Source: Cryobacterium sp. PH31-O1 | GTDB lineage: Bacteria; Actinomycetota; Actinomycetes; Actinomycetales; Microbacteriaceae | DNA: 64,000 nt | Reading direction: 5' to 3' | Assembly: GCF_030063455.1 (NCBI RefSeq) | Contig: NZ_JASITB010000005.1 | Location: forward strand, 62,001-126,000 | Part shown: piece by piece, positions 41,400 through 61,742 of the stretch | Layout: each line of letters starts with the position of its first letter | Numbering within the stretch: position 1 is the stretch's first letter | Notes under the pieces: model-generated | The model's database searches: none | Told to the model about the DNA's origin: nothing | Seen by the model: the letters and a program-made list of their open reading frames with translations, nothing else | Made by a program: the position numbers and the translations under genes

Positions 41400-41408
41400 T
41401 CTTCCAGC

Positions 41409-44453: not shown

Positions 44454-44457
<4 letters not shown>
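42406..44457 (-). CDS. flhA: Flagellar type III export protein FlhA
   Basis: FlhA is the large export-gate protein of the flagellar secretion apparatus. The GTG at 44455-44457, after GGAGG, overlaps the flhB stop as GTGA and gives 683 residues. The N-terminal half is polytopic and contains the conserved FHIPEP-region equivalents: FPSLLLVATLFRLGLNVAST and GARFTLDAMPGKQMAIDADL. The C-terminal half is the soluble chaperone-docking domain. A longer frame to 44655 reads through flhB and is not FlhA-like. Confidence 0.96.
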
Positions 44458-45614
<1,157 letters not shown>

Positions 45615-46373: not shown

Positions 46374-46374
46374 G

Positions 46375-46650
46375 TCAGCCGCCGCCGAGCAGTGACGGAA
46401 TCTTTTCGAACATCGAGTTGGTAAACGCCACCGACTCGGCGATCATCCAGTGGCCGCAGATGAGCAGGGCCAGGGCGACGGCCACCGCCTTCGGCACGAA
46501 CGACAGCGTGACTTCCTGAATTTGGGTGATCGACTGCAGCAGCGAGATCGCGAAGCCAACAACGAGGGCCGTGATCAGTACCGGGGCAGACAATTTTGCA
46601 GCGAGAATCAGCGCCTGCAGGCCGATATCGAGCACCGCATTGGTGTTCAT
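46375..46650 (-). CDS. fliQ: Flagellar export protein FliQ
   Basis: A 91-residue two-helix membrane protein of the export gate. It has the typical start MNTNAVLDIGLQALILAAKL and the FliQ segment SLLQSITQIQEVTLSFVPK. The ATG overlaps the fliP stop (ATGA). Confidence 0.95.
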   Translation of the reverse strand: MNTNAVLDIGLQALILAAKLSAPVLITALVVGFAISLLQSITQIQEVTLSFVPKAVAVALALLICGHWMIAESVAFTNSMFEKIPSLLGGG

Positions 46651-47525
46651 GTGTTCAGCTGATAACTGCCGATGAGGCTCGTGATGATGAGCCCCCAGCC
46701 ATCGACAAGCACGAACAGCAAAATTTTGAAGGGGAGCGAGATCATGACCGGCGGCAGCATCATCATGCCCATCGACATCAGCGCAGCCGAGACGACGATG
46801 TCGATGACCAGAAACGGAATGAAGATGACGAAGCCGATGATGAACGCGGCGCGCAGTTCAGAGATCATAAACGCCGGGATGAGGGTTAGCAGGGTGACGT
46901 CGTTGGGATTGTCGGGATTGGGCTGATCGGCGGCCCTGGTCATCAGCGCGAGGTCTTCCCCGCGCGTGTTGGCGAGCATGAATTGTCGCAACGGCTCAGA
47001 ACCCAGATTGAGCGCATCGGTGAAGTTGAGCGAACCGTCCAGGTAAGGCTGCAGGGCCACGGTGTTGATGTCGGTCAGTACCGGCGCCATGATGAACAGC
47101 GACAGAAACAGTGCCAGTCCCGCGAGCACCTGGTTCGGTGGGATCGACGGCAGTGCCAGGGCGTTACGGGTCATGGCGAGCACGACGAAAATCTTCGTGA
47201 AGCTCGTCATCATGAGCAGCAGCGCCGGTGCAACCGAGAGCAGGGTGATGCCCAGCAGCGTGACGATCGCCGATGAAGGGGCACCGTCTGGCCCGTTGAT
47301 GTCGACGCTGAGCCCACCGCCACCGGTGTCGCTCGGATCGGTCGGATCGGTCGGCAGGGTGGGGTCGACGGGGCTGTCCGGCATTGCCGGATCAACGGGC
47401 AGGGCGTGCACGACGCTCACGCTCAACCAAACCAGGGCCGCGGTGATGACGATGACCGACAGAATTAGCAGGCCGAGACGGGCGGAGGTCTGCCGGCTCA
47501 CGGCGCGGTTTGCCGCGGTATTCAC
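46647..47525 (-). CDS. fliP: Flagellar export protein FliP
   Basis: Core subunit of the export gate, made with a cleaved signal peptide. The GTG at 47523-47525 overlaps the fliO stop (GTGA) and gives 292 residues. A hydrophobic signal (about 16-40) is followed by an unusual 35-residue linker rich in Pro and Asp (PVDPAMPDSPVDPTLPTDPT). Conserved segments are TSFTKIFVVLAMTRNAL, PPNQVLAGLALFLSLFIM, FMISELRAAFIIGF and SMGMMMLPPVMISLPFK. Confidence 0.95.
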   Translation of the reverse strand: MNTAANRAVSRQTSARLGLLILSVIVITAALVWLSVSVVHALPVDPAMPDSPVDPTLPTDPTDPSDTGGGGLSVDINGPDGAPSSAIVTLLGITLLSVAPALLLMMTSFTKIFVVLAMTRNALALPSIPPNQVLAGLALFLSLFIMAPVLTDINTVALQPYLDGSLNFTDALNLGSEPLRQFMLANTRGEDLALMTRAADQPNPDNPNDVTLLTLIPAFMISELRAAFIIGFVIFIPFLVIDIVVSAALMSMGMMMLPPVMISLPFKILLFVLVDGWGLIITSLIGSYQLNT

Positions 47526-47980
47526 CGTCCCTGCCGAAGCAGTGCGGCGGTCTGACGCCACGTCGACGGCGACAGAATCGACCCGGCTAGCCCAGCTGGC
47601 CTGGCGGCCGTCGGTACCGCGGCTGCGTCATCCGCTGTGGCCGCTGCCAGTGATCGGGCAAAGGCGGTGCCGGCACTATCGGGGCTGCCGAGTGCCGCAA
47701 CCGCGGCGTCGAGGGTGGACGGAGAGACGGAAACGAGGGACTTTTCGTGCAGCACGGTCACGGCCTGTTCGGTCACGCCGAGGACGAGACGCGTACCATC
47801 GACCTCAACGACGACGACGGATGCCTTCTGCCCGATGGGCTGACGGCCCACGACGGTCACAGGGTTGATACTGCCCTTGGCCAGCACCCCCCGCGACAGG
47901 CGTCGTTGCAGGTACCAGAGCAGCGCAAGTACCACGCCCAGGGATAGGACGACGCGCACCGCAACAATAAGGGTGTCCAC
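47522..47980 (-). CDS. fliO: Flagellar biosynthetic protein FliO
   Basis: FliO helps FliP assemble. The 152-residue protein has one N-terminal membrane helix (about 3-24), then a small beta-rich domain with the FliO pattern VVGRQPIGQKASVVVVEVDG and RLVLGVTEQAVTVLHE. A Ser/Ala-rich tail follows. The GTG start abuts the fliN stop. Confidence 0.92.
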   Translation of the reverse strand: MDTLIVAVRVVLSLGVVLALLWYLQRRLSRGVLAKGSINPVTVVGRQPIGQKASVVVVEVDGTRLVLGVTEQAVTVLHEKSLVSVSPSTLDAAVAALGSPDSAGTAFARSLAAATADDAAAVPTAARPAGLAGSILSPSTWRQTAALLRQGR

Positions 47981-48688
47981 TTACGACAGGCCCTCCGCGA
48001 CATCGAGAATCTGGGTGATCCGTACGGCGTAGTCCTGATCGACGACGACGATTTCGCCGTGGGCGATGAGCCTGCCGTTGAGGAGGATATCGGCCGGCGC
48101 TCCGGCAGAACGATCCAATTCGATAACGGCGCCGGGCTTGAGTGACAGAACGTCGCGCACGGACATGCGGGTGCGCCCGATCTCCACCGTCAAGGACATC
48201 TCGACGTTACTGATGCGCCCGAGATTTCCCATGACGCTGCGGCTCTGTGCCGCGCCGGGCCCGCCGACGAGACCGTTTTCGCGCACACGAATGGCAAACC
48301 AGCCAGTTACTACTCCGCCAGCGCTCAGCTCGAAGATCTGTGTGTCGTCGGCGGCGAACAACGCCGAGGCGTCTTCAACGCGGGAATCACCGAGGACGCC
48401 GATTCCGAGCACACTGGAGGCACTCTCGAGAGCCGGGCGCAAAACGTCTTGGCTGGATACGAGCTGGGAGTTCGCTCCGGCTGCGGCGTCCAGGGAGGCC
48501 GAGTCGCTGAGCACCACGGCCAGGTCGGCCGATGTCGTTCCGACAAAGGAGGCCACCACGGCCAACCCGACGCGTGTGGTGAGCTCGGCACTGCCCAAAT
48601 GGGGCAGGGCCTGAAGCGGCACCGTCGTAGGCAATACGCGGATGAGAGCGTCAACGGCGGCTTCGGGAATGGATCGGGTAGAAATCAT
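47981..48688 (-). CDS. fliN: Flagellar motor switch protein FliN (long form)
   Basis: C-ring subunit. The C-terminal 80 residues are the SpoA/FliN domain: NVEMSLTVEIGRTRMSVRDV, LKPGAVIELDRSAGAPADIL and VNGRLIAHGEIV-like NGRLIAHGEIVVVDQDYAVR. The N-terminal 140 residues form an extra domain that recalls the FliY/CheC-like part of B. subtilis FliY, but the phosphatase motif is not obvious. The ATG overlaps the fliM stop (ATGA). Confidence 0.92.
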   Translation of the reverse strand: MISTRSIPEAAVDALIRVLPTTVPLQALPHLGSAELTTRVGLAVVASFVGTTSADLAVVLSDSASLDAAAGANSQLVSSQDVLRPALESASSVLGIGVLGDSRVEDASALFAADDTQIFELSAGGVVTGWFAIRVRENGLVGGPGAAQSRSVMGNLGRISNVEMSLTVEIGRTRMSVRDVLSLKPGAVIELDRSAGAPADILLNGRLIAHGEIVVVDQDYAVRITQILDVAEGLS

Positions 48689-49653
48689 TGAGCTGTCTCC
48701 TCGGTATCAATGACGATGCACGCCAGCCGCGAACCGTTGGCTCCGACGGCCGCGCGGGCCAGCGGCTGGCCGTCAACGGTCAGATTGAGCGGACGGTGCT
48801 GGGGGTGCGGAATGTGCAGAACGTCGCCGATAGCCAGCGACAGAATGCGGCTGGGCAGTACGTGCGCTGTCTCCAGACGAAGCGACACGTCAACGGGTAC
48901 GGCCGCAATCTGGGACTGCAGAAATTGCGCGGAGTTCGACGTGGTGCTGGTGGGATTCGCTTCGCCCAGTTGCGGCATTAAAGCCGCGGCAGGAATCGCT
49001 ACGGTCGCCGTTGCCGTGACCTTTTCCACTCGAATCGAGAAGGTCGCGACCACCATCAGGTCGCCGGTGGCGGCCGCCTGGGCGAACTGCGAGTTGTATT
49101 GGATCGCCTCAACGCCCATCTCATCAACGATGAGTGGTCCGAAGGAGTAGCGCAGATCTTCGAGGCTCTCGGCGATGAGCTTGCGAATCAGGGCCAGCTC
49201 GATTTGGGTAAAATTGCGTTCATCGAGCACCGGGGTGCTGCTGTTGCCACCGAGCATGTGATTCACCCAGGAAAGTGCCGAGGTGGTGGGAAACTGAATA
49301 ACGGCGCGCGCTTCCAGGCCAGCCACCGTGCACAGCACCATGGCCGTTTTGGGCGGCAGGGAACCCGCATATTCGTCGTACGTGGCCATGACCACCTGCT
49401 CGCAGGAGACAATGCACAGCACGCGTACGCGTGCGGTCAGCTGCGTACCCCACTGTCTCGCGAAAGTCTCAAATGCGAGTTCGAGTACGCGGGCGTGTTC
49501 GCGAGCCAGGGTGGTCGGTCGACGAAAGTCGTACAGTTCAACGCTTTTCGCCGCTATCGCGGGCGCGCTGCCGCCGACCTGATCCTGGACTGTCACGATG
49601 GGACTATCGGCCGGGTTAGCCGAAAGGTAAGAAGCCTGTACCAGCGGATACAT
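48685..49653 (-). CDS. fliM: Flagellar motor switch protein FliM
   Basis: C-ring protein that transmits CheY~P binding to FliG. The 322-residue protein has the middle domain (YDFRRPTTLAREHARVLELA, LPPKTAMVLCTVAGLEARAV and MLGG) and a C-terminal SpoA domain with ILSLAIGDVLHIPHP. The extreme N-terminal LSQxEIDALL-type CheY-binding motif of enteric FliM is not evident. It lies 4 bp after motB. Confidence 0.93.
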   Translation of the reverse strand: MYPLVQASYLSANPADSPIVTVQDQVGGSAPAIAAKSVELYDFRRPTTLAREHARVLELAFETFARQWGTQLTARVRVLCIVSCEQVVMATYDEYAGSLPPKTAMVLCTVAGLEARAVIQFPTTSALSWVNHMLGGNSSTPVLDERNFTQIELALIRKLIAESLEDLRYSFGPLIVDEMGVEAIQYNSQFAQAAATGDLMVVATFSIRVEKVTATATVAIPAAALMPQLGEANPTSTTSNSAQFLQSQIAAVPVDVSLRLETAHVLPSRILSLAIGDVLHIPHPQHRPLNLTVDGQPLARAAVGANGSRLACIVIDTEETAQ

Positions 49654-49657
49654 CCAC

Positions 49658-50515
49658 TCAGCTCACCGCGGCGACGCCGGGAATGAGCGCCCGCACGCTA
49701 TCGGGCTGGTTGGACAGCACCACGATATCGACTCGGCGGTTCTGCGCCATATCCTGGAGGGTGGATCCGGTGTTCTCCGGCTGAGCCGATCCGAAGGCAA
49801 CGGCGGATATCAGGTCTCCGGCGACGCCGCCCTGTTCGACCAGGCGACGCAACACCTGGGTAGCACGGCTGGCTGAGAGTTCCCAGTCTGTGGGGAAGGT
49901 CGCTGACTGGCCGTGCTTGTCGGCGTGCCCTTCCACCGATATTTTCTGCCCGGTGGCCATTAGTGCCGGGGCTGCGGCATCGAGCACGGCAGCTGCCGCC
50001 GCGGTGAGTTGGGCGCTGTCTGGTGCGAAGAAGGTCTCGCTTCCCACCAGCCCGAGGGTCAGTCCTCGGTCGGTGATGTGAAATTCCACGAGGTCTCCAA
50101 CTCCGGCTGCGGTTAGGCTGCCGCCGACGGCGACCGCCAGCTCGTCAAGCTTCGCGACCTCCTGCGCGGCCGCTGTGGCGTTGGCGGTCGCCTGCGCACC
50201 AGCGTCGGCCGGGTCGACGGCTTCGGCCGAGTGCGTGACCTCGGTGGGCGATTCTCCCTCGTTATCGACGAGGTCAGCCGGAACGACGACTCCCTCGGCT
50301 GTGTCGACCTTGCCCGCGTTGACGGCTCCGAATCCGGTGGCCAGGGAGTTGGCTAGTTGCTCATACTTGTCTTGGTCGACCGTCGACATGGCGAACAGCA
50401 CGATGAACATGCACATCAATACGGTGACCATGTCCATATAGGAGGCCATCCACCGCTCGTCGGGGTGAACGTCCTCCTCTTCAACCATTTTGCGACGTTT
50501 GGCGCGCACACTCAT
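49658..50515 (-). CDS. motB: Flagellar stator protein MotB
   Basis: Peptidoglycan-anchored half of the ion-driven stator. The 285-residue protein has a basic N-terminus and one helix with the ion-carrying aspartate Asp28 in WMASYMDMVTVLMCMFIVLF. After a linker comes an OmpA-like domain with SVEGHADKHGQ, LSASRATQVLRRLVE and NRRVDIVVL. Its ATG overlaps motA (ATGA). The ion (H+ or Na+) is not predictable by eye. Confidence 0.96.
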   Translation of the reverse strand: MSVRAKRRKMVEEEDVHPDERWMASYMDMVTVLMCMFIVLFAMSTVDQDKYEQLANSLATGFGAVNAGKVDTAEGVVVPADLVDNEGESPTEVTHSAEAVDPADAGAQATANATAAAQEVAKLDELAVAVGGSLTAAGVGDLVEFHITDRGLTLGLVGSETFFAPDSAQLTAAAAAVLDAAAPALMATGQKISVEGHADKHGQSATFPTDWELSASRATQVLRRLVEQGGVAGDLISAVAFGSAQPENTGSTLQDMAQNRRVDIVVLSNQPDSVRALIPGVAAVS

Positions 50516-51366
50516 GCTGCCTGGGGAAGGTCTTTGTCCTTACCCTTTCCTTTACCCTTGGCGTTGGCCTTGCTGGTGCCGGAGCTACCGCCGGCATCCG
50601 CTGCACCGACTTTGGGCAAAAGCTCGGCGGGAACCATGGCGCGCAGGCGGTCGCCGAGCAGCCGAGGCTGGCTGCCGGCCTGCACGGCCAGGGCGCCCTC
50701 CATGACGAGGGTCATGCGATCGACCTCAAGGTCGGCGAGACGGCGCAGGCGTGAGCCGAGTGGCAGCCAGATAAAGTTGGCCGATAGCAGCCCCCAGAGC
50801 GTAGCGACAAAAGCGGTTGCGATCATCGGGCCGAGGGTGGCTGGCGTCGACAGGTTTTCCAGAACGTGGGTGAGAGCCACGACGGTTCCGACAATGCCAA
50901 TAGTCGGTGCATAGCCGCCGAGGCCGGTGAAAAATTTGGCAGCGTTTCGATTGGAACGCGCGGTCGTGGCGATCTGGTCTTCAAGCAGCATGCGTAGTTC
51001 ATCGCCGTCTGTGCCATCGGCGATGTTTTGCAGGGCCCCGCGGAGGAATGGATCGGTGACTTTATCGGCCTCTTGGTCGAGGGCGAGCAGGCCCGAACTG
51101 CGCGCGGTTTCGGCGAGCCCGACGACCTGGTCAATGACGGCTTGGGGCGGGGTTGTCTTGCCGAGGAACGCACCGGGCAGTGCCTTGAAGGCCGAGGTGA
51201 AGTCCTTCATGGTGCCGCCGGCGAGGCCGACAGCGATGGTGGCACCGAACACCAGAATCATCGGCGCGGGAAGCAGAATGGCCGTGACCGAGGAGCCCTC
51301 GATGGAGATCATGGCCAGAAGCGCGCCAAAGGCGAGCACGAGGCCAATGAGAGTTGCGGGATCCAC
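50512..51366 (-). CDS. motA: Flagellar stator protein MotA
   Basis: Forms the stator channel with MotB. The 284-residue protein has four membrane helices: two at the N-terminus (LIGLVLAFGALLAMISIEGS region) and two in the middle (YAPTIGIVGTVVALTHVLEN, MIATAFVATLWGLLSANFIW). A cytoplasmic loop with charged residues lies between, and the C-terminal tail is Lys/Gly-rich. The GTG start shares one base with the flbD stop. Confidence 0.96.
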   Translation of the reverse strand: MDPATLIGLVLAFGALLAMISIEGSSVTAILLPAPMILVFGATIAVGLAGGTMKDFTSAFKALPGAFLGKTTPPQAVIDQVVGLAETARSSGLLALDQEADKVTDPFLRGALQNIADGTDGDELRMLLEDQIATTARSNRNAAKFFTGLGGYAPTIGIVGTVVALTHVLENLSTPATLGPMIATAFVATLWGLLSANFIWLPLGSRLRRLADLEVDRMTLVMEGALAVQAGSQPRLLGDRLRAMVPAELLPKVGAADAGGSSGTSKANAKGKGKGKDKDLPQAA

Positions 51367-51599
51367 TACAGCTTCCTGGGGCCTCGTGGCAAATCGCCCG
51401 CGTTCGGGTCGTACGCGAGCGCGATCACGTGTGCACGGTAACTGGCAATCTTCTCGATCACTTCTTCCATGGACTCGGTGACTATGAAGTTGGCGCCGTC
51501 AACCATAACCAGGGTGGTGTCCGGGTTCGCGTGGATGCGTTCGATCAGGTCAGGATTTATCGCAAAGTGACTGTCGTTCAGCCGCGTTAGTACGATCAT
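51366..51599 (-). CDS. flbD: FlbD family flagellar protein
   Basis: A 77-residue protein beginning MIVLTRLNDSHFAINPDLIE, the FlbD (SwrD) signature. In B. subtilis SwrD raises stator torque; it sits here directly upstream of motA, as in many Gram-positive flagellar operons. The start is the ATG at 51597-51599. An in-frame ATG at 51636-51638 would add 13 Pro/Arg-rich residues. A sigma-28-like promoter lies upstream. Confidence 0.92.
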   Translation of the reverse strand: MIVLTRLNDSHFAINPDLIERIHANPDTTLVMVDGANFIVTESMEEVIEKIASYRAHVIALAYDPNAGDLPRGPRKL

Positions 51600-51644
51600 C
51601 TGCTCATCCCGTCTCGAACGACTCGGCGGAGGCGTCATGGTGTA

Positions 51645-51671
51645 CTGTCGGCCGCCGCACCGCTCAGGTTA
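51645..51671 (-). promoter_or_regulatory. Candidate sigma-28-type promoter for flbD-motA block
   Basis: On the minus strand TAACCTGA, an 11-base spacer and GCCGACAG. The enteric/Bacillus flagellar sigma consensus is TAAAGTTT-N11-GCCGATAA; the -10 matches 6 of 8 and the spacer is exact. It lies about 46 bp upstream of the flbD ATG. A second copy of the same design precedes flgB. Confidence 0.55.
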
Positions 51672-51704
51672 GGAACTGCGGCTAGTTCATCGGCCGCCGA
51701 CACG

Positions 51705-51735
51705 ACTCTGGCCCCGACGGGTGCGGGGCCAGAGT
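51705..51735 (-). terminator. Hairpin after flgE
   Basis: ACTCTGGCCCC (51705-51715) and GGGGCCAGAGT (51725-51735) form a perfect 11-bp stem with a 9-base loop, 27 bp after the flgE stop. No T-run follows. It is positioned to end or attenuate the flgB-flgE transcript before the flbD promoter. Confidence 0.7.
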
Positions 51736-51761
51736 GGTTAAGAGTCGTTCAGAGTGGCCGG

Positions 51762-52940
51762 TTAGCGCTTGAGGTTGGTCAGCTCCTGCAGTACCTCATC
51801 GGAGGTGGTGATGATGCGGGCGTTGGCCTGAAAGCCGCGCTGGGCAACGATGAGGTTGGTGAATTCCTGCGACAGGTCAACGTTCGACATTTCGAGGGCA
51901 CCGCTGGTGAGCGAACCGAGGCCGGCCGCACCCGGGGTGCCGAGCGCCGCACCACCGGAGTTGAACGTGGCACGGTAGGCCGAAGAACCGGCTTTTTCGA
52001 GTCCGCCCGGATTGACGAACGTGGCGAGGGCGATGCGGCCGATGGCCTGCTGCTGTCCGTTGCTGAACAGACCGACGAGCGTACCGTCGGCGCCGAGCGT
52101 GTAGGAGTTGAGCGTGCCAGCCTCGTTGCCGTTGTCGGTCTTGCCTGCCACGGTATTGAGTCCGGAGAAGCCCTCGAGGGCAGCGAGATTCATGGCGATA
52201 CCATCTACGGTCAGGGCGCCCGAAGCGATGAAATTGCCCGTGGTTCCATCGGCGACGAGTGCGATGCTGTTGGCCGGGACATTCGTGTCCGCCACTGTCC
52301 AACCATCTGGGGCATCCGTGCGGGTGAAGGTGACCGAGATCGTGCGGGAGTTGCCAAGGTCGTCGTAGACGTCGACCGTGCGAACGAGCGCGCTTCCCGA
52401 TTTGGAATCGGACGGAAGGTTGCCGGTGAAGGTCGCTGCGTTCGAGGCAGAAGCGGGAACGATCGCTTCAGCGGGCAGCCTGATGTTACCGACCGCCCCG
52501 CCGTCGGCGACCACGCCGCCGACCGCACCCCAGCCCTGTACGATCGCGCCGTCGGGCGAGACCAGCCGACCCAGCGAATCGAAGTCGAAGGAACCGGCAC
52601 GGGTGTACAAGGTCTCGCCGCCGAGAGAGGTGACAAAGAAGCCGTCGCCCGAAATCATGAGGTCGGTGGTCTTGCCGGTGGCCTGCGACGAGCCCTGGGC
52701 AAAGTTCGTGGAGATTCCAGCTACCTGCACGCCGAGCCCGACCTGGGCCGGGTTCGTGCCGCCGATCGTGGTTGAAGCGCCGCCGGCCGCCTGGGTCAGC
52801 TGCGAGAGGGTGTCCTGAAACTGAGCGGCGGACGCCTTGAACGCCGTGGTGTTGACGTTGGCGATGTTATTGCCGGTCACGTCGAGCATGGTCTGGTGGG
52901 AACGAAGGCCCGAGATGCCGGAGTAGAGAGAACGAAGCAT
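51762..52940 (-). CDS. flgE: Flagellar hook protein FlgE
   Basis: Hook subunit exported by the flagellar apparatus. The 392-residue protein has the rod/hook N-terminal motif MLRSLYSGISGLRSHQTMLD with VTGNNIANVNTTAFK and the C-terminal motif SNVDLSQEFTNLIVAQRGFQ, ANARIITTSDEVLQEL. Between them lie the FlgE D1 and D2 hook domains. Start: ATG at 52938-52940, preceded by AAAGG 10 nt away; an in-frame TTG lies six codons upstream. Confidence 0.95.
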   Translation of the reverse strand: MLRSLYSGISGLRSHQTMLDVTGNNIANVNTTAFKASAAQFQDTLSQLTQAAGGASTTIGGTNPAQVGLGVQVAGISTNFAQGSSQATGKTTDLMISGDGFFVTSLGGETLYTRAGSFDFDSLGRLVSPDGAIVQGWGAVGGVVADGGAVGNIRLPAEAIVPASASNAATFTGNLPSDSKSGSALVRTVDVYDDLGNSRTISVTFTRTDAPDGWTVADTNVPANSIALVADGTTGNFIASGALTVDGIAMNLAALEGFSGLNTVAGKTDNGNEAGTLNSYTLGADGTLVGLFSNGQQQAIGRIALATFVNPGGLEKAGSSAYRATFNSGGAALGTPGAAGLGSLTSGALEMSNVDLSQEFTNLIVAQRGFQANARIITTSDEVLQELTNLKR

Positions 52941-53000
52941 GGGAGTGAAGCCTTTCAAGAATGAGGTGGGGTGCAGTTGGTGGGGTGGTGCGAGCGCCGA

Positions 53001-53447
53001 TCAGGCCGCGGGTGTCGCCTCCACGGGGCTGGTGACACCGGAGATGACGTCGAGGGCGACGGCTTCACCGTTGACGGTGACCATGGGCACCGCATTCGCG
53101 AACGAGACTGACGAAGCCAGCCCGGTGATTTCGACGCCATCCGCGTTGGTATAGGTGACCGTCTCCCCCACCAGCGCGGCCGCCGAGGTGCGCATCTGCA
53201 GCGAGAAGCCCTCCTCGCTGGCGGTGGCCATCTCGGTGAGTTTCTCCATCATGGCGAGCTGGGTGGTCTGGGCGATCATCTCGTTGGTATCCATGGGCGA
53301 GCTCGGATCCTGGTTTTGCAACTGGGTCACCAGCAGCGACATGAATACCTCCGAGTCCATGGACTGGTTCGGCGTGCGCGTCGTGGTCGTAGACGAGTAC
53401 ATTCCGGTCGGAGCGACGGCGTTAGCCGCCAGAGCGTCGATTGTCAC
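53001..53447 (-). CDS. flgD: Hook assembly scaffold protein FlgD
   Basis: Temporary cap that guides hook assembly. The GTG at 53445-53447 follows AGGAG and gives 148 residues. The conserved N-terminal part is MDSEVFMSLLVTQLQNQDPS, PMDTNEMIAQTTQLAMMEKL. Only a short C-terminal part follows, so the FlgD Ig-like domains of longer homologues are missing, as in other Gram-positive short FlgD proteins. An upstream extension to 53645 overlaps fliK. Confidence 0.93.
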   Translation of the reverse strand: MTIDALAANAVAPTGMYSSTTTTRTPNQSMDSEVFMSLLVTQLQNQDPSSPMDTNEMIAQTTQLAMMEKLTEMATASEEGFSLQMRTSAAALVGETVTYTNADGVEITGLASSVSFANAVPMVTVNGEAVALDVISGVTSPVEATPAA

Positions 53448-53460
53448 GGTAATTCTCCTT

Positions 53461-54852
53461 CTAGGCCAGTACGTCGATGGTGTGAGTGAACCCGTATCGG
53501 GGTGGTCGGTTGTGCGGTGGAGTATCCGGGGCTCGACCATCACCGTTGGGGCGGTCCCGGTCGCTTGAATTGCGTCCTTCGGTCTCTGACCGCGGTTGGC
53601 GAGTGGCGTCGGGATCGCCGGCCTGGCTGTCGGGAGATAGATCAAGCTGGGCGCTCAGCCCCGAACCGGCCAGGTCACGGCGCAGATCGGGCAGGATCAG
53701 TCGCAGAGCATCTCGGGCCAGATCGGTGGGCGCGAACAGTTCCACCCGAATGCCCTCCCCCGTCACATGGGCCCGAACGGTCACCGGCCCAAGGTTGTCG
53801 GGCGTGACGCTAATGGTCAGCACGTGCTCGCCGGGAGTAGCGGTGGTGAGAGAGAAGAGCGGCTTCATAATCTGCGTGCTGAGCGGCACAGCGGCCGGTG
53901 CCGGCACCGCAGTCGGGGGCGCCGTGAGAGGCGTCGGCGGCATGGCCGCAGGCAGAGCGGATGCCGTGGGCACGGCGGGCACGGCGGGCACGGTCGGCGC
54001 AACGGCGTCGGTGCTGGCGCTGGCACCGCCGGCGGCTAGTCGCACCGAGTCGGGTAGCACCGACCCTGCCGACCCAGTACTTACCACGGCACCATTTTGC
54101 GCAGCGGCAAGGTTGGGACCACCAGCGACTGCCAGGGTCGCCGCCCCGATGGGCGTCGAATCGGCCCCGCCTGTCGCGGCAATGGTCGCGGCAGCTGCGC
54201 CGGTATCGGTGCCGCGGCCAGCAGCGGCCGTCGCTCGGCCCAGAGCGCCAGGGGCCGTGCCAGCTGTGGCAAACCCCGCAGTGGGGGCAATTGTGTCGGC
54301 GACGTCGGCAGCAAGTTCAACGACGGTGCCCGGATTCGCAGCGGAAAGCGGTGCGGAGACGGGTGTGGAGACGGGTGTGGAGACGGGTGTGTAGACGGTT
54401 CCGCCGGCGGCGGCGGTGCTTGACTCGGCCAGCGCCGCAGACCCAACTGGCACAGACCCAACAAGCACAGACCCAACTGGCACAGCCCCAACTGGCACCA
54501 ACCCAACCGGCGCGGGGTTGTTCGTGGCAGTAGCTGCAATCTGTGCGGGCGCCGCAGAAGCGGCGGCGGCCCAAACCAGATCAGCCAGGATCGATGCCGG
54601 GACCGCGCTATTCGCCGCGGAGGAATCAGCTGCGGATGCCGGGTCAGCGGTCACGCCCGAATCGTTCGAGGAAGCTGTCGACGAGTCCGTCGAGGAGGCT
54701 GCGGTCGACGACAGTGCGGCGCGACCGGCGAGGGTGCCATCCATGATCGTCCCAAATGCATCAGCGCCCTGCGAAGCATGGTTCGCGTCGCGCGCATCCG
54801 TTACGGCGGCAGGAGCCGTCGCTGGCCGATATTGACCGAGGGTGAGCGTCAT
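53461..54852 (-). CDS. fliK: Flagellar hook-length control protein FliK
   Basis: Secreted ruler that triggers FlhB switching. The 463-residue protein is mostly low-complexity and Ala/Val/Pro/Thr-rich, as expected for a ruler. The conserved C-terminal domain has EHVLTISVTPDNLGPVTVRA, GIRVELFAPTDLARDALRLI and LPDLRRDLAGSGL. Two internal repeat blocks encode VSTP and PVGSV-like units. The ATG overlaps the NlpC/P60 stop (ATGA). Confidence 0.92.
   Translation of the reverse strand: MTLTLGQYRPATAPAAVTDARDANHASQGADAFGTIMDGTLAGRAALSSTAASSTDSSTASSNDSGVTADPASAADSSAANSAVPASILADLVWAAAASAAPAQIAATATNNPAPVGLVPVGAVPVGSVLVGSVPVGSAALAESSTAAAGGTVYTPVSTPVSTPVSAPLSAANPGTVVELAADVADTIAPTAGFATAGTAPGALGRATAAAGRGTDTGAAAATIAATGGADSTPIGAATLAVAGGPNLAAAQNGAVVSTGSAGSVLPDSVRLAAGGASASTDAVAPTVPAVPAVPTASALPAAMPPTPLTAPPTAVPAPAAVPLSTQIMKPLFSLTTATPGEHVLTISVTPDNLGPVTVRAHVTGEGIRVELFAPTDLARDALRLILPDLRRDLAGSGLSAQLDLSPDSQAGDPDATRQPRSETEGRNSSDRDRPNGDGRAPDTPPHNRPPRYGFTHTIDVLA
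54356..54511. repeat. Short in-frame tandem repeats in fliK
   Basis: Two arrays. GGTGTGGAGACG (12 bp) is repeated about three times at 54356-54399, encoding VSTP units. A 15-bp unit (core CCCAACTGGCACAGA) runs at about 54442-54511, encoding PVGSV-type units. Both are multiples of three and vary between copies. Confidence 0.85.
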
Positions 54853-55502
54853 AGTGTGTTTCCGGTGACTGTGCTGTTTTGCTGGGCGAAAGCTGCGAAG
54901 GCCTTTTGCAGCGCGGCGGAGCCGGTGTCGGCGACTGCCGAGTTCGTGGGAATGATGCGACGAATGGTGGTGATATCGGCATCCGTCATGTACGCCTCAC
55001 GCAGGCAGACGGTGCGTCCCGGATATGGCGCGTGGATGACCTTGTTGTCACCGGCGTAAATAAGAATGTGGTCGCCGCCGCCGGTGACGATGAGGTCACC
55101 CGGCTGGGCCTCGGCGAGCGAAGCGACCTCGGTGCCCATCTTCATCTGGCCAGAAACCAGCCGCGGAAGTTCTATGCCTATATCGGCATATACGGTCTGC
55201 ACGAGTCCGGAACAGTCCATTCCAGAGGAGTCTTCGCCGCCGAATACATAGGGGACGCCGAGGTATTTCTCGGCGGAGGCGACCACGTCGGAACCCGTCT
55301 TACCGTTTGCCGATCCGGCCGCGCTCGTGGCGCTGGTGCCAACGGCCGCGGCGAGGGTGGCTGCGAAACTATCAGCTGAAGCGGATGCCGCACCGGTCGT
55401 CACGGCGTCCGTCGTCGTGACGCGTTCGGTCTTCACGTTCGACAGCTGTTGCAGGGTCGCCTGGATTTGGCTGATTCTGCCCATGGCGGCAATCATCGTC
55501 AC
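54849..55502 (-). CDS. NlpC/P60 peptidoglycan hydrolase of the flagellar operon
   Basis: A 217-residue protein with a C-terminal NlpC/P60 endopeptidase domain (about 70-165). It has nucleophile Cys97 in MDCSGLVQ, His145 in GGGDHILIYAG and His157 in VIHAPYPG. This family cuts the stem-peptide gamma-D-Glu bond. The N-terminus (MTMIAAMGRISQIQATLQQL) is not a Sec signal peptide. Set between fliJ and fliK with 4-bp overlaps on both sides, it likely opens the wall for the rod, the job of FlgJ in Gram-negatives, perhaps exported through the flagellum. Confidence 0.88.
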   Translation of the reverse strand: MTMIAAMGRISQIQATLQQLSNVKTERVTTTDAVTTGAASASADSFAATLAAAVGTSATSAAGSANGKTGSDVVASAEKYLGVPYVFGGEDSSGMDCSGLVQTVYADIGIELPRLVSGQMKMGTEVASLAEAQPGDLIVTGGGDHILIYAGDNKVIHAPYPGRTVCLREAYMTDADITTIRRIIPTNSAVADTGSAALQKAFAAFAQQNSTVTGNTL

Positions 55503-55960
55503 AGTGTCTCCCCCTTGGTGATCGATCGGTGGGTCGTATTGGTACGGCCGCGGTGCCAGCGGGCGGCGGCAATTTCGTCGAGTACGGTTTGCTCTGCGTG
55601 CAGGTCTTCAGCGAGCACGGCGGCGGCGTGCCGGTCGTGCAGCTTCTCGAGCGCAACCGACTCGGCCCTGGCCGCGCTGTAGGTGCTCTGGGCGGTGTCG
55701 AGACTTTCCTGATGGTTGCGTCCCATCGCGTTGAGTTCGGCGAGCATGCTGCGTGACGACGAACGGGCCGCGGCCATTGCGTTGAGGGCGGCGATGGTCT
55801 GCGGGGTGTTGCCGAGAGCGCCAAGGGCAGAGCGGGCGCGACCCCGGCGGGCCTGAAGAGCTGCCACCCGGGCATTTGCTTCGGCCAGGTCGAGGGCGGC
55901 CTGATCCTGTTGCAACTTACGCAGTCGCAGCAGTCCGGCGAGAGCAAAGCGGCGGCTCAT
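55499..55960 (-). CDS. fliJ: Flagellar export chaperone FliJ
   Basis: A 153-residue alpha-helical, coiled-coil protein rich in Ala, Arg, Glu and Gln, starting RRFALAGLLRLRKLQQDQAA, the FliJ pattern. FliJ links the FliI ATPase to FlhA and recycles chaperones. It overlaps fliI by ATGA, and context is the main evidence because FliJ sequences diverge strongly. Confidence 0.88.
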   Translation of the reverse strand: MSRRFALAGLLRLRKLQQDQAALDLAEANARVAALQARRGRARSALGALGNTPQTIAALNAMAAARSSSRSMLAELNAMGRNHQESLDTAQSTYSAARAESVALEKLHDRHAAAVLAEDLHAEQTVLDEIAAARWHRGRTNTTHRSITKGETL

Positions 55961-57294
55961 GCGACAGCCCCGAACGCGCTCGTCAGTCGAGAAAGCTGGG
56001 CCCAGGCCTGGTCGCTGGGCGTCTGGTCGTCCATCCGCTGCTGCAGAAATGCTTTGATGGACGCGTCGTTCTCGACGGCCGCATCGACCAACGCGTTCGT
56101 GCCAGCCCGGTACGCACCGACGTCGAGTAAGTCCTGCGCGCCCTGACGCGCCGCCATCACCCTGCGAAGCGTCGTGGCAATGGCATTCTGTTGCGGGCTG
56201 TTCACCCTGGAGGCCACCCGAGAGATAGAGGCGAGCACATCGACCGACGGAAAGTGTCCGGTGATGGCGAGTTTGCGATCGAGAACAACGTGACCGTCGA
56301 GAATAGACCGCGCGGCATCGGCGATGGGCTCATTGTGGTCGTCACCGTCGACGAGCACCGTGTAGATTCCGGTGATCGACCCGGTTTCTGCGGTTCCGGC
56401 GCGTTCCAACAGTCGGGCGAGTACGGAGAACGTCGACGGCGGGTAGCCGCGGGTAGCTGGTGGTTCCCCGACCGAGAGCCCGATCTCGCGTTGGGCCATT
56501 GCCACGCGGGTCAGCGAGTCCATCATGAGCATGACGTCGGCACCCTGGTCGCGAAACGATTCGGCGATGCGAGTTGCAGTGAAGGCGGCACGCAGCCGCA
56601 TCATCGCCGGTTCGTCCGAGGTGGAGACGACGACGATGGAACGGGCCAGACCTTCAGGCCCCAGGTCGTCTTCGAGAAACTCGCGAACCTCACGCCCACG
56701 CTCGCCAACCAGCGCGATAACCGAAACCTGGGCGTCGGTGCCGCGGGCGATCATCGACAACAGGGACGATTTGCCTACGCCAGAACCGGCGAACAACCCC
56801 ATCCGCTGGCCACTCCCGACCGTCATAAGTGTGTCGAGAACGCGCACTCCAAGGTGCAGTGGGGTCGTGATGCGCGCACGGTGCATGGCCGAAGGACTGT
56901 CGTGTTCGAGCGATACGGCGCCGTCGGAATCGAGCGGTCCCTTACCGTCGATCGGGCGACCGAGTCCGTCGATGACACGCCCAAACAGGCCGCGGCCGGT
57001 GGGCACGAGCAGGGGGGAGCCGGCCGAACGCACACGGGCACCAGCTTGCAACCCGGTGATGCGCCCGAGCGGCATGCAGCGAATACCGCTCTGGGTCGTC
57101 GCGACGACCTCAGCGTCGATGCCAGGATGGCCGGGTCGGGCACCGAGCGTGACGATGTCGCCGATCGCCGAGCGTAAGCCGCGTACCTCCACGCCGAGTC
57201 CGACGATAGACGACACGACGCCGACCCGTTCGGGGCGACCGGCTTCGATGGCCTGCACGAGTTGCGCTTCTCGCGGGCGCCAGGCGGTGGTCAT
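55957..57294 (-). CDS. fliI: Flagellum-specific ATPase FliI
   Basis: Energises the export apparatus. The 445-residue protein is a RecA-fold F1-beta-like ATPase. It has Walker A GSGVGKSS (170-177), Walker B in ADVMLMMDSLTRVAMAQRE and the family segment EPPATRGYPPSTFSVLARLL. The ATG overlaps fliH (ATGA). Confidence 0.97.
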   Translation of the reverse strand: MTTAWRPREAQLVQAIEAGRPERVGVVSSIVGLGVEVRGLRSAIGDIVTLGARPGHPGIDAEVVATTQSGIRCMPLGRITGLQAGARVRSAGSPLLVPTGRGLFGRVIDGLGRPIDGKGPLDSDGAVSLEHDSPSAMHRARITTPLHLGVRVLDTLMTVGSGQRMGLFAGSGVGKSSLLSMIARGTDAQVSVIALVGERGREVREFLEDDLGPEGLARSIVVVSTSDEPAMMRLRAAFTATRIAESFRDQGADVMLMMDSLTRVAMAQREIGLSVGEPPATRGYPPSTFSVLARLLERAGTAETGSITGIYTVLVDGDDHNEPIADAARSILDGHVVLDRKLAITGHFPSVDVLASISRVASRVNSPQQNAIATTLRRVMAARQGAQDLLDVGAYRAGTNALVDAAVENDASIKAFLQQRMDDQTPSDQAWAQLSRLTSAFGAVA

Positions 57295-57905
57295 GCTTCG
57301 ACCGGGTCGAGGGCTGCCTTGGCGCGTGCAAAGGCCGTGCCGATGCGCGCGTCGAGAAAACCATCGCTGAATTCGGTGATCGCGTCGCCCCGCTTGAGCC
57401 GCGAATCCGCTACAAAGCGGATGCCTTCCAGAGCCCGAGTCTGCGCTCCCAGCACCCCGAGATCCTCCGGATGCATGCGAATCGCGTGCACCTCGCTCTG
57501 GTCAAGTTGGTCAGGCTGATGCAACGCCCGCTCCAGGGCGCGGCGCGCGGACGGCTCGGTGTGGCTGAGCTCACAGCCCAGAATGGCCTCGACCAGGTCG
57601 AGCGACATGTTGACGAGGGTGGTTTCTGCCTGCTGAATGAGCGGAATACTGCGTTCATTCAGGGCGCGTGCTGCAGCGGCGAGCAAACGCACCGACTGGG
57701 CGATCTGCGCCTCGCCGTACCGTTCATTTTCGGCGTGCTCAGCGTTGATCTCTTCGGCGCGGCGGGCAACATCAGCTGCGGCCAGGCGCAGTCCCTCGGT
57801 GTAACCGGCGGCATGACCCTCGGCACGCGACTGCTCGGCGGCCCGGTCGGGCTCGTCGTTCAGTCTCGGAAAGGCCAGGCGGCCAAAACCGGTTTCAATT
57901 GACAT
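57291..57905 (-). CDS. fliH: Flagellar assembly protein FliH
   Basis: Peripheral regulator of FliI. The ATG at 57903-57905 after GAGGACGAAT gives 204 residues. An early charged region has RAEGHAAGYTEGLRLAAADV with glycine-spaced helices. The C-terminal FliH/V-ATPase-E-like part contains NMSLDLVEAILGCEL and VADSRLKRGDAITEFSDGFL. It overlaps fliG by 11 bp. A longer frame to 58094 reads through fliG in another frame. Confidence 0.92.
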   Translation of the reverse strand: MSIETGFGRLAFPRLNDEPDRAAEQSRAEGHAAGYTEGLRLAAADVARRAEEINAEHAENERYGEAQIAQSVRLLAAAARALNERSIPLIQQAETTLVNMSLDLVEAILGCELSHTEPSARRALERALHQPDQLDQSEVHAIRMHPEDLGVLGAQTRALEGIRFVADSRLKRGDAITEFSDGFLDARIGTAFARAKAALDPVEA

Positions 57906-58911
57906 ATTCGTCCTCGGCACCGCGTTGCACCGTGATGCTGCCCTGGGCTTCCAGGTCGCGAATAGCGCGCACGATTTCGGCGCGGGCATCTTCGACCTGG
58001 CGCATGCGAACGGGGCCGAGGCTCTTGGTTTCGTCGTCGAGCACGTCGCGGTTACGCTCAGAAAGGTTGGCACGAATGACCTCGGCGACAGCATCGGATG
58101 TGCCCTTCATCGCCCGGGCCAAAATGTTCGTATCGATGCCACGCAGCACCTGTTGCACATCGCGGCTGTCCAACTTGACGATATCGACGAAGGTCAGCAT
58201 GCGCGAGCGTATCTCGTCGGCCAGAGCCGGGTCGCGTTCCTCGAGACTCTCCAGAAGCGCCCGTTCGGTGGCGGCATCCGCTCGGTTCATGATGTCGACG
58301 AGCGGTTGAACACCACCAACGACTTCAATGCTCTCGCGGGCAACGATCTTGCCGGTACGCAATTTGAGGGTGTCGGTAACTACACGAATGGCCTCGGGGG
58401 TGGCGCTCGACATGGTGGCGATGCACTGGGCTACGTCGGTGCGCAGGCCGGGTTCCATACCGGCCAGAACAGCGGATGCCTGATCGCGTCGAAGGTGCGC
58501 CAAGACCAGGGCAATGGTCTGGGCCATTTCGCCGTCGAGCAGGTTGAGCACGTCGCCGGGATCGGACGAGTCGAGAAATTCAAAGGCCTTACCGGCCATG
58601 GACGTGGCGACTCGGTTCATGACCCCGGCCGCTCGTTCAGCGCCAAACGAGGCTTCGAGCAGGCCAACGGCGAATTCATGCCCGCCGCGGGAAAGTCGTC
58701 GGCCCTTCAGGGTGATTTCGTGAAACTCGTTGAGGGTGGATTCTGCGACGGCGGGGTCGACATTGCGCAACTGCACGATTTCGCCGGCAATAACTTCAGC
58801 CTCGATGTCGCTGAACTGCTTCATCACCTCGGTAGCGCGCTGGCGATCCATGTTCATGAGCACGACGGCCACTTTTTGGGTGCCGGTCAGTGCCGCGCCC
58901 GGCTCGTTCAT
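57895..58911 (-). CDS. fliG: Flagellar motor switch protein FliG
   Basis: Rotor protein that contacts MotA. The 338-residue product has the three FliG domains. The N-terminal part is TGTQKVAVVLMNMDRQRATE. The middle EHPQ-like region is here ETIALVLAHLRRDQAS-type MAQTIALVLAHLRRDQASAV. The C-terminal torque helix lies in IRANLSERNRDVLDDETKSL. The ATG overlaps fliF (ATGA). Confidence 0.96.
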   Translation of the reverse strand: MNEPGAALTGTQKVAVVLMNMDRQRATEVMKQFSDIEAEVIAGEIVQLRNVDPAVAESTLNEFHEITLKGRRLSRGGHEFAVGLLEASFGAERAAGVMNRVATSMAGKAFEFLDSSDPGDVLNLLDGEMAQTIALVLAHLRRDQASAVLAGMEPGLRTDVAQCIATMSSATPEAIRVVTDTLKLRTGKIVARESIEVVGGVQPLVDIMNRADAATERALLESLEERDPALADEIRSRMLTFVDIVKLDSRDVQQVLRGIDTNILARAMKGTSDAVAEVIRANLSERNRDVLDDETKSLGPVRMRQVEDARAEIVRAIRDLEAQGSITVQRGAEDEYVN

Positions 58912-60524
58912 ACGCGCTGCCGGTCATCCATGAGACCCCGCAAGAACTCGGCGGTGCCGCGGGGGTCGGTCTGGGCCAAAGAATCAATCTCGGCGCGCCG
59001 CAGATCAGTGTCCGTCGGCACGAACTTGACCGTGGGAATGATCTTGGTGGGCGTGTCATTCGGGCTGTCCAAAAACAGCGACGCGGCCGATGAGGTGACC
59101 GCGAGCGGAACGGTGGCCTCGCCGAGCGCGTTTTGCATCTCGGTGAGATCGCCGATCTCCACGGTTTCTCGACTCTGGCGACGGGAGCGGCGGGCATAGA
59201 GAATCAGGCTGACGATGAGCGTGATCACGATTCCGGCGGTGATCACCACCACCCGCAGAATTTTGGCGAACTGTTCCGCGGCTGCGGCATCCGTTGCTGC
59301 CTTGAGCGCTGCCGCGGCTCCTGCGGCGCCGGTGGTGTCAAAGGCCATGACCTCAACGGTTACCGCGTCGCCGCGCACGGCATCGATTCCAGCGGCCGAC
59401 GTGACGAGAGAGGTGATGTCGGCCACATTGAGCTTGGCGGCGGCAGCAGAATCGACGGCCACCGATACCGTTTGCCTGGTGATCGCTCCGGCGGGAATGG
59501 TGCGATTTTCGGTGACCTTGTTGACGGCGTTGTTGCGGGTGGTCGACTCGCTCGAAAACGTACCATCGGTGGCACCGTCGGCCACGGTGGCCGTGTCGCT
59601 GCCCAGCACGCCCGCGGCGCTGCCGCCGGTTCCCGAATAGGTCTCCGTATCGACGGATTCGTTCAGGGCCGGAGTCTGGGTCGGGGCGGTGAATGACTCT
59701 TCGACCCGTTCGGCGGATTCGTAGCTCATGTCAGCGGCGACCACGACGGTGGCGTTGCCGGCACCGACCACCTTGTCGAGCATGGCCTGCACGGCGCTGC
59801 GCACGCGGGTCTCATAGTCGGAGGCCTGCTGATTGGCTCCCCCGGTGGCGCCGACACCGACGGCCGAGAGCACAGCACCGGTCGAGTCGACGACGGCCAC
59901 GTCTGCCGCGGTCATGCCGTCGATCGAGGCGCTGGTCAGGTGAACAATGGCCTGCACCTGGTCGTTTGAAAGCGAGACACCGTTTCGGGTTTCGACGAAG
60001 ACGGATGCCGTCGGGTCGTTCTTCTGTGATACAAACACGCTGTCTTCGGGAATGGCGAGCTGCACGGAGGCCATCTTCACGCCGTCGAGTGCGCCGATGG
60101 TCTTGGCCAGTTCACCCTCGAGTGCCCGTTTGTACGTAACAGACTGCTGAAATTCGCTCGAGGTGACACCCATGGTGTCGAGCAGGGAGTAACCGCCGGT
60201 GCTTGAGGTGGGCAGACCCGCCGATGCCGACTTGATGCGCTCGTCGTAGACACTCGCTTCGGGCACCAGAATGGTGGCTCCGCCATCGGTCAGCTCGTAT
60301 TCCACGCCGTCGGCGCGCAGCTGCTCGACGATGCTGTTGGCGTCTTCGCCGCTGAGCCCAGAGAACAGCGGCGTGTAGGCGGGTTTGGTGACCCACATCG
60401 AGAGAGCGGCAATACCGAGAACGAGTACGGCAACGCCGATGATGGCGACGGTGCGCTGGGCAATTGTGAACTCACGAATCGCATTTCCGAAGCGCTTGAA
60501 GGCGCTGGTGACTTGCCGGGGCAT
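58908..60524 (-). CDS. fliF: Flagellar MS-ring protein FliF
   Basis: Forms the MS ring, the base of the basal body. The 538-residue protein has two membrane helices (about 26-46, VAIIGVAVLVLGIAALSMWV, and about 438-460, VVVITAGIVITLIVSLILYA) with the ring-building YscJ/FliF domain between them (TPLFSGLSGEDANSIVEQLR). A C-terminal FliG-binding tail ends in DPRGTAEFLRGLMDD. It overlaps fliE by one base. Confidence 0.96.
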   Translation of the reverse strand: MPRQVTSAFKRFGNAIREFTIAQRTVAIIGVAVLVLGIAALSMWVTKPAYTPLFSGLSGEDANSIVEQLRADGVEYELTDGGATILVPEASVYDERIKSASAGLPTSSTGGYSLLDTMGVTSSEFQQSVTYKRALEGELAKTIGALDGVKMASVQLAIPEDSVFVSQKNDPTASVFVETRNGVSLSNDQVQAIVHLTSASIDGMTAADVAVVDSTGAVLSAVGVGATGGANQQASDYETRVRSAVQAMLDKVVGAGNATVVVAADMSYESAERVEESFTAPTQTPALNESVDTETYSGTGGSAAGVLGSDTATVADGATDGTFSSESTTRNNAVNKVTENRTIPAGAITRQTVSVAVDSAAAAKLNVADITSLVTSAAGIDAVRGDAVTVEVMAFDTTGAAGAAAALKAATDAAAAEQFAKILRVVVITAGIVITLIVSLILYARRSRRQSRETVEIGDLTEMQNALGEATVPLAVTSSAASLFLDSPNDTPTKIIPTVKFVPTDTDLRRAEIDSLAQTDPRGTAEFLRGLMDDRQRV

Positions 60525-60838
60525 CAGGCTTGCATCCTCATGATCTCGTTGAACGCGTCGACGCCTTTGTTACGCACGGCGGCGACGAGTTCCATGGTCA
60601 CCTGGGCGCGGGTGGCCGCGATGGTGGCGGTGTGAATATCGTTGAGGTCGCCGGTGACGGCCTGAATGGCAAGGGCGTTGGAGGTTCCCTGCAGCTGCTG
60701 CAGGTTGTCAACGGCGCCAGAAAGCGCGGTGCCAAAGCCAGAGCCATCCGTTTGTTGGGTGGCGGTCGTAGCCGAACTGCCCATGACCCCCGAGAGTGAG
60801 GTCGTGGCGATGGTGGCGTTAATGGCGCTGAGTGGCAT
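60524..60838 (-). CDS. fliE: Flagellar hook-basal body protein FliE
   Basis: Joins the MS ring to the rod. The 104-residue protein has the family C-terminal pattern GDLNDIHTATIAATRAQVTM, ELVAAVRNKGVDAFNEIMRM. ATG overlaps the flgC stop by one base. Confidence 0.94.
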   Translation of the reverse strand: MPLSAINATIATTSLSGVMGSSATTATQQTDGSGFGTALSGAVDNLQQLQGTSNALAIQAVTGDLNDIHTATIAATRAQVTMELVAAVRNKGVDAFNEIMRMQA

Positions 60839-61224
60839 CAGCCACGTCCGATCTGTAGTGCGGCTTCATAGGCGGTCTTGGCTCGGTCGACGACGGCGGC
60901 GTTGGCCTGGTACCCGCGCTGGGCCATGATGAGGTGGCCCATCTGCTCGGCCATGTCAATGTCGGGGTAGCGCACGTAACCGTCGGCATCGGCGAGCGGG
61001 TGGGCCGGTTCGTAGATCAGGGTTCCCGCGGCGCTGCCGAATGCTGCTGTAACGCTGGCTCCCGCGTTGCCGGCACCTTCCTGCGCCAGCACGTAGCGCT
61101 CCTGAAAGGCAGAGTCGGTGGTGGCTGTGACGGTGTTGGCGTTGGCGAGGTTGTCGGCGATGGCGTCGAGCCATTTGCGGTGCAGCGTCATGCCGTTGCC
61201 GGCGATGCCAATGGCGTCGACCAT
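60838..61224 (-). CDS. flgC: Flagellar rod protein FlgC
   Basis: Proximal rod subunit of 128 residues. The N-terminal rod motif is GIAGNGMTLHRKWLDAIADN with LANANT. YVRYPDIDMAEQMGHLIMAQ and RGYQANAAVVDRAKTAYEAA form the C-terminal rod motif. ATG overlaps the flgB stop (TAATG). Confidence 0.95.
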   Translation of the reverse strand: MVDAIGIAGNGMTLHRKWLDAIADNLANANTVTATTDSAFQERYVLAQEGAGNAGASVTAAFGSAAGTLIYEPAHPLADADGYVRYPDIDMAEQMGHLIMAQRGYQANAAVVDRAKTAYEAALQIGRG

Positions 61225-61565
61225 TAGGCGGTCTTCATTGCGGCGCGAATGGATGAGACCGGACCTTCGACGGCCTTGGCGGCGAACTGGTAGCGCAGCA
61301 GTGCGTCGATATTGGCGAGGGTCTCGGTGTCGAGGTTCACGTTGTTGCCGTTGAGCAGGGTCGGATCGAGCGATCGTTCGGTGGTGGCGGCCGAAACACC
61401 GTTGCCATCGGCGACCGACTTGGCCAGTGCGTTTTCGAAGGAAACGACCTTGGCGTGGTAGTCGGGGGTGTTGATATTGGCGATGTTGTTCGCGATGGTG
61501 CGCTGGCGCAGCGCGAGGCCGTCCAGAGCGCTCGTAAGGGCCAGGGAGGTCACGGAATCAAGCAC
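61224..61565 (-). CDS. flgB: Flagellar rod protein FlgB
   Basis: First gene of the basal-body operon; rod subunit. The GTG at 61563-61565 gives 113 residues with LALTSALDGLALRQRTIANN and IANINTPDYHAKVVSFENAL, then a C-terminal NIDALLRYQFAAKAV. A frame upstream to 61634 would begin inside the leader hairpins and adds non-rod residues. The leader carries a promoter and RNA hairpins. Confidence 0.93.
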   Translation of the reverse strand: MLDSVTSLALTSALDGLALRQRTIANNIANINTPDYHAKVVSFENALAKSVADGNGVSAATTERSLDPTLLNGNNVNLDTETLANIDALLRYQFAAKAVEGPVSSIRAAMKTA

Positions 61566-61596: not shown

Positions 61597-61634
61597 GGCC
61601 AATCCGTGGCCAGGTGTGAGCGATCCGTGCTCAC
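61597..61634 (-). promoter_or_regulatory. flgB leader: twin hairpins with ACGGAT loops, candidate CsrA target
   Basis: On the minus strand GTGAGC-ACGGATC-GCTCAC (61634-61616) is a 6-bp stem with a 7-base loop. GGCCA-CGGAT-TGGCC (61611-61597) is a 5-bp stem with a 5-base loop. Both expose the A-C-G-G-A core that CsrA prefers, with the two GGA triplets 21 nt apart. They lie between the predicted transcription start (about 61634) and the flgB GTG. CsrA is encoded at the far end of the same locus. Confidence 0.55.
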
Positions 61635-61640
61635 TCCTTG

Positions 61641-61667
61641 CTATCGGTCGCCCCGATAGAAGTGTTA
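61641..61667 (-). promoter_or_regulatory. Candidate sigma-28-type promoter for the flgB operon
   Basis: On the minus strand TAACACTT, an 11-base spacer and ACCGATAG: 5 of 8 and 6 of 8 matches to TAAAGTTT-N11-GCCGATAA with the exact spacer. The -10 and spacer also contain CTATCGG...CCGATAG, an inverted repeat, so DNA or RNA structure is an alternative explanation. The gene-free stretch 61566-61742 holds this promoter and the leader hairpins. Confidence 0.55.
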
Positions 61668-61742
61668 GAAGTTCGTGGGAACATTCCCTAAGTTTGTTGC
61701 ACTACGGCGTGTCGCCTTTGTTTCACTACCCTCAAACGGGGG

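Follow-up and report, generated by a model that had tools for sequence, protein, structure and literature searches.

The window, a stretch of 64,000 nt from Cryobacterium sp. PH31-O1, contains a co-directional run of flagellar genes on the minus strand (41043..61565) that comprises basal-body, motor, hook and export genes and is probably transcribed as one or few units. It begins with flgB, flgC, fliE, fliF, fliG, fliH, fliI, a fliJ-like gene, an NlpC/P60 gene, fliK, flgD and flgE and continues with flbD, motA, motB, fliM, fliN, a fliO-like gene, fliP, fliQ, fliR, flhB, flhA, a flhF-like gene and csrA. These names were assigned by reading the open reading frames, with Pfam used only for FlgB, CsrA, FlbD, FliS and one unnamed neighbour. 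The first gene flgB (61224..61565, minus strand) encodes the flagellar rod protein (Pfam Flg_bb_rod) and its start, set by comparison with relatives, is most likely the GTG at 61565 (MLDSVTSLAL...). A longer mechanical open reading frame starts at 61634, inside the first of the hairpins described below, and is not supported by the relatives. Directly before the flgB start a box GACGAA[A/G/T]CGGG (61567-61582, minus strand) is conserved in the Microbacteriaceae group (leaders L002-L035) and offers no clear Shine–Dalgarno sequence. Elsewhere in the run, a TGACGA tandem repeat of 7.8 copies (44481-44527) lies at the overlap of the flhB 3' end and the flhA start, where it is read as a poly-Ser stretch ending FlhB and may be prone to slippage.

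Upstream of flgB the minus strand encodes two adjacent hairpins. Hairpin 1 (61616..61634) reads GTGAGC [ACGGATC] GCTCAC, with a stem of 6 bp, a 7-nt loop and its GGA at 61626-61624; hairpin 2 (61597..61611) reads GGCC [ACGGATT] GGCC, with 4 bp or 5 if an A-U pair is included, its GGA at 61605-61603 and 31 nt between its end and the flgB start codon. The original prediction had described two neighbouring stem-loops exposing ACGGA with GGA triplets 21 nt apart, and direct reading bears this out, the triplets starting at 61626 and 61605. In both loops the GGA thus lies inside a short hairpin, as in CsrA/RsmA targets, and the 21 nt found in Cryobacterium sp. PH31-O1 fall within the range that a single CsrA dimer can bridge. 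Folded alone, the 51-nt segment forms exactly hairpins 1 and 2 (-20.9 kcal/mol, z = -2.4), with 3 of 200 shuffles folding equally well. This is only mildly better than chance, so the evidence beyond chance for the twin hairpins is comparative. If the flgB start is included in the fold, the minimum free energy structure opens hairpin 2 and forms a longer helix reaching into the start region instead.

A sigma-28-like promoter precedes the hairpins (61641..61668, minus strand), consisting of CTAAC (61668-61664), a 16-nt spacer and CCGATAG (61647-61641). The corresponding pattern, CTAA/CTTA/CTCA/GTTA followed after 18 nt by CGA and after another 10–11 nt by GAGC, occurs in 77 of 87 flgB leaders selected by protein and in none of the 87 when shuffled. 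In most leaders 10–11 nt separate the CGA of the -10 box from the beginning of hairpin 1, in agreement with the predicted position of the hairpins at the very start of a sigma-28-type transcript, whose 5' end is presumed. The same promoter type is present before fliC in 29 of 30 cases and, in this genome, also before flgN; early and late genes therefore seem to share it. A perfect 7-bp inverted repeat, CTATCGG-GGCGA-CCGATAG, spans the -10 box (61641-61659) and is retained only in part among close relatives.

To judge the conservation of the hairpins, flgB was located through its protein, which placed it in 47 of 60 relatives and 50 of 395 class members. The leaders, chosen by the FlgB protein alone, were inspected blind to the motif. 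In 81 of 90 leaders two GGAs 14–32 nt apart are flanked by stems of 4 bp or more, compared with about 7% of dinucleotide-based shuffles, 2 of 90 antisense sequences, 1 of 90 coding sequences and 14 of 90 sequences from further upstream, a control that includes related sequences. The twin hairpins before flgB are thereby confirmed as real, and the conserved GGA loops and covarying stems foreseen for related Microbacteriaceae extend far beyond that family. The element is missing or unreadable in a few leaders (e.g., L044 and L220). For the Nocardioides family the reading covered 78 distinct leaders, nearly all of which possess both hairpins. Second flgB paralogues in family f33 (L200 and L201, from G340 and G399) have no twin hairpins, while the main copies do.

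In 55 divergent leaders 84.6% of the alignment cells pair, compared with at most 39% when the sequences are slid, and cells changed on both sides number 24 against 13.7 in shuffles. The covariation score is 0.133 against 0.082 for shuffled leaders, with 0 of 500 shuffles as high, and some leaders have a different stem altogether, as in GGCGC..GCGCC (L046), TGGCC..GGCCA (L195) and GCGCC..GGCGC (L048). In Nocardioides-type leaders hairpin 2 adopts the register GCCG[ANGGAC]CGGC. Because hairpin 2 occurs in two registers, RNAalifold returned only 3 bp for the mixed alignment, and pairs were then counted with named structures. The loops read ANGGA throughout, where the base before GGA can be A, C, G or U; the GGA served as alignment anchor and its invariance is thus partly by construction. 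The GGA–GGA spacing is mostly 20–25 nt. As candidate CsrA sites, the CANGGA loops with variable N match the CsrA rule, for which SELEX gave the consensus RUACARGGAUGU with GGA in hairpin loops (PMC7652899); against this counts that the loops are mostly 7 nt long, the commonest CsrA loop being a hexaloop. Stem 1 (GAGC/GCTC) is more conserved in sequence than pairing needs, which leaves room for a DNA-level or other constraint.

A covariance model (R1) built from 15 Nocardioides-family leaders recovered all 56 held-out leaders of this family with one match each, at E values between 1e-11 and 8e-5. Among 297 genomes sampled from the phylum, the sole genome matching at E<=1e-5 was that of the window itself; the non-matches include at least two flagellated genomes (G037 and G053) in which the element is weak or missing. 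The second-best match in this genome has E = 0.01, and such weak matches elsewhere in it were treated as noise. GTDB contigs were also scanned blind for an exact twin pattern, which gave at least 119 stretches. Among the matches listed, all 80 titles belong to Actinomycetota, 110 of 124 matches lie 22–81 nt upstream of flgB and most of the rest lie before fliH-like or NlpC/P60 genes.

The TwoAYGGAY RNA consists of two adjacent hairpins with AYGGAY loops. Its Rfam model (RF01731) does not match the window segment at E<=10 or the loci of 15 relatives at E<=1, and a search of the window and its relatives against Rfam found nothing relevant apart from one spurious Xoo8 match. TwoAYGGAY is listed from human gut, gammaproteobacteria and Clostridiales and proposed as sRNA (PMC2864571), and was suggested by motif matching to bind CsrA (PMC4333381). 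Both elements share the twin hairpin shape, but the flgB element is a fixed flagellar mRNA leader in Actinomycetes.

The csrA gene (41043..41399, minus strand) is the last gene of the run, at the distal end where it had been reported. The protein it encodes (Pfam CsrA, 1.6e-24) has its best PDB match in 5dmb_D, from a CsrA–FliW complex, and keeps L4, R6, R44 and the N55/AASH segment. R44 is an RNA-binding residue of CsrA and N55 has a role as well; the genome thus encodes a CsrA with its RNA-binding residues. A FliW gene is located nearby, about 5.7 kb outside the window. Across the genomes compared, csrA is present in 66 of 66 flagellated genomes and in 0 of 13 without flgB; for fliW the figures are 65 of these 66 flagellated genomes and a single non-flagellated one. 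As csrA follows the presence of flagella in general, this co-occurrence does not single out the flgB leader and was rejected as proof specific to it.

In the relatives, all 30 fliC leaders contain a hairpin whose loop reads A[U/C]GGA[U/C] and, 28–31 nt from it, a Shine–Dalgarno sequence that itself includes GGA (ACGGAGG in 29, AUGGAGG in one), which is the layout of the Bacillus subtilis hag leader. The fliC leader of this genome (L169 2060-2420, minus strand, G000:C13) likewise has an AUGGAU hexaloop hairpin and the Shine–Dalgarno sequence ACGGAGG, with GGA over the ribosome-binding site, while at flgB of the same genome no GGA covers a Shine–Dalgarno sequence or the start codon. Having both a hag-type site at fliC and twin hairpins at flgB, CsrA probably acts on both genes by different layouts. 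The original prediction had left open whether the flgB run is controlled instead of, or besides, flagellin; 'besides' holds and 'instead of' does not.

A further feature, which is new here, is a complementarity between the GGA loops and the flgB start. Codons 3–6 of flgB, GAT TCC GTG ACC (61548..61559, minus strand), form an anti-GGA element complementary to the loop CACGGAT, and such complementarity is present in Micrococcales and in the Nocardioides family. Among 122 distinct FlgBs starting with [DEQG]SV[TS], codon 3 is GAA or GAT in 79% (14% elsewhere), Ser4 is TCC in 86% (29% elsewhere) and Val5 is GTG in 83% (34% elsewhere), with Thr6 near background, so that the bias points to [A/U]-UCC-GUG, the complement of CACGGA[U]. 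An ordinary start effect might account for the AT preference in codon 3, though not for the preference for TCC and GTG. Ensemble folding of leaders from the Microbacteriaceae group predicted 4.3 loop–codon pairs compared with 1.3 when the codon order was shuffled. In the Nocardioides family loop and start tend to change together, as in AAGGAC~GUCCUU, ACGGAC~GUCCGU and AUGGAC~GUCCAU, with the amino acid changing along. There the loop base N complements codon 3 in 26 of 46 genes (13.7 expected by permutation), or 14 of 26 against 6.5 with duplicates removed, these being raw counts over sequences that are related by descent. Own loops fit the start over 6.7 and 5.6 nt, compared with 5.6 and 4.3 nt for loops swapped in from other groups, and in the remaining families the swap reveals zero excess. 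The complementarity is absent in several families, such as f33 (Actinoplanes-like) and f43, though the twin hairpins are kept there; start pairing is therefore not the universal function of the element and was discarded as such.

We consider it rather probable that the leader is a 5'-terminal double CsrA site at which CsrA would free the flgB start and thereby activate it, whereas it would repress fliC, with FliW reversing both effects. The sigma-28-type promoter would give rise to an mRNA whose first 40 nt fold into the two hairpins, and one CsrA dimer would bridge both ANGGA loops. Without CsrA, one loop would pair with the first flgB codons in Micrococcales and the Nocardioides family and hamper initiation. 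As a loop cannot bind CsrA and pair with the start at once, CsrA should favour flgB initiation by leaving the start free. It would so promote expression of basal-body and export genes, possibly also by shielding the mRNA 5' end, and meanwhile repress fliC via its Shine–Dalgarno site, until hook completion releases FliW from flagellin to remove CsrA and both effects are reversed. In B. subtilis free CsrA represses flagellin before the hook is complete (PMC7652899), and activation of flgB would hence mean opposite control of basal body and filament. Precedents for activation by CsrA are ymdA, moaA and phz2, by freeing the start, and flhDC, by protection of the 5' end. In Escherichia coli ymdA and moaA and in Pseudomonas aeruginosa phz2 CsrA/RsmA undoes an inhibitory pairing, the same logic as proposed for flgB, but at flgB the partner is part of the opening codons and would pair with the very loop proposed to bind CsrA. 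The original interpretation is thus partly supported, with CsrA as the probable regulator of the flgB run and, more likely, a different sign of control.

Of the other explanations the most viable, although we regard it as possible rather than likely, is that CsrA on the twin hairpins simply stabilizes the mRNA by covering its 5' end, start pairing having no role. E. coli flhDC, a flagellar transcript with two CsrA sites close to its 5' end, sets the precedent (PMC7652899). At flgB hairpin 1 keeps a constant distance to the promoter, which puts it within a few nucleotides of where the transcript presumably starts, and both candidate sites lie at this presumed 5' end, away from the Shine–Dalgarno sequence. 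flhDC differs in encoding a master transcription factor, the flgB run consisting of structural genes with the additional start complementarity. The explanation also suits families without this complementarity, for which 5'-end protection or sequestration is more likely, but it leaves the conservation of codons 3–5 and the loop–codon covariation unexplained. Repression of the flgB run as in Bacillus hag, with negative feedback from the distal csrA, was implied by the original prediction and appears unlikely to us. With CsrA bound 25–35 nt ahead of the start, the edge of the 30S subunit might be obstructed; csrA does belong to the same run, and the hag leader is alike in that a flagellar mRNA carries dual GGA sites and FliW occurs in the genome. 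Yet the flgB target is the basal-body run and not flagellin, no GGA covers the start or, in this genome, a Shine–Dalgarno sequence, fliC of the same genomes displays what a repressive layout looks like, and loops complementary to the beginning of the reading frame argue for the opposite sign. It is doubtful that the leader serves mainly as a CsrA sink, in which abundant flgB-type leaders titrate CsrA off the fliC mRNA: the resemblance to TwoAYGGAY and the two or three copies in some genomes would fit, but there is usually one strong copy per genome and the start complementarity would be unneeded. Finally, the repeats are very improbable as DNA sites for a transcription factor with incidental RNA hairpins. 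The near-invariant inverted repeat GAGC-N7-GCTC of stem 1, set at a constant distance from the -10 box, would fit such sites. However, the conserved ANGGA centres lack palindromic symmetry, hairpin 2 changes its register and stem but retains GGA in the loop (GCCG[ANGGAC]CGGC, GCGCC..GGCGC), the distance between the hairpins varies and stem changes are compensatory.

With CsrA-mediated activation as the preferred reading, a wider role can be suggested tentatively. FlgM is reported to be missing from later actinobacterial classes (PMC10746217) and a search for it in this genome found none. In flagellated Actinomycetes CsrA–FliW might, with less confidence than we have in the activation itself, act as a morphogenetic checkpoint with reciprocal control of early genes (flgB, joined by fliH and fliP in some genera) and late genes (fliC), which would share the sigma-28-type promoter and differ in leader type, the anti-GGA codons serving as off-switch. 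This would give a directly testable explanation of how flagellar genes under one promoter type come to be ordered in organisms without the FlgM checkpoint. The leader would also be a class-wide structured RNA missing from Rfam, and the pairing of an in-gene sequence with a CsrA loop an unusual coupling of CsrA to translation. The presence of csrA in flagellar loci of actinobacteria was noted in 2008, together with the proposal that CsrA controls the flagellin of Kineococcus (PMC2587704); in the passages found, this proposal concerns the flagellin mRNA and not the flgB leader. As the original prediction had stated for flgB, we found no description of a CsrA target at flgB or basal-body genes in Actinobacteria in the openly readable literature.

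Additional copies of the element precede several units, a pattern expected for the target of a trans-acting regulator. In G404 the twin element and promoter are repeated before fliH and fliP, the latter identified by Pfam (FliP, 2e-22) and the former, about 3.9 kb after the flgB copy, falling below the cut-off (FliH, 0.009). Microbacterium and Frigoribacterium have both before fliH-like genes and Demequina before an NlpC/P60 gene. A second twin element was also found in G275 (L253, G275:C12:56250-56294, E 1.6e-6), and the gene following it encodes an Ala-rich protein with a hydrophobic N-terminal segment.
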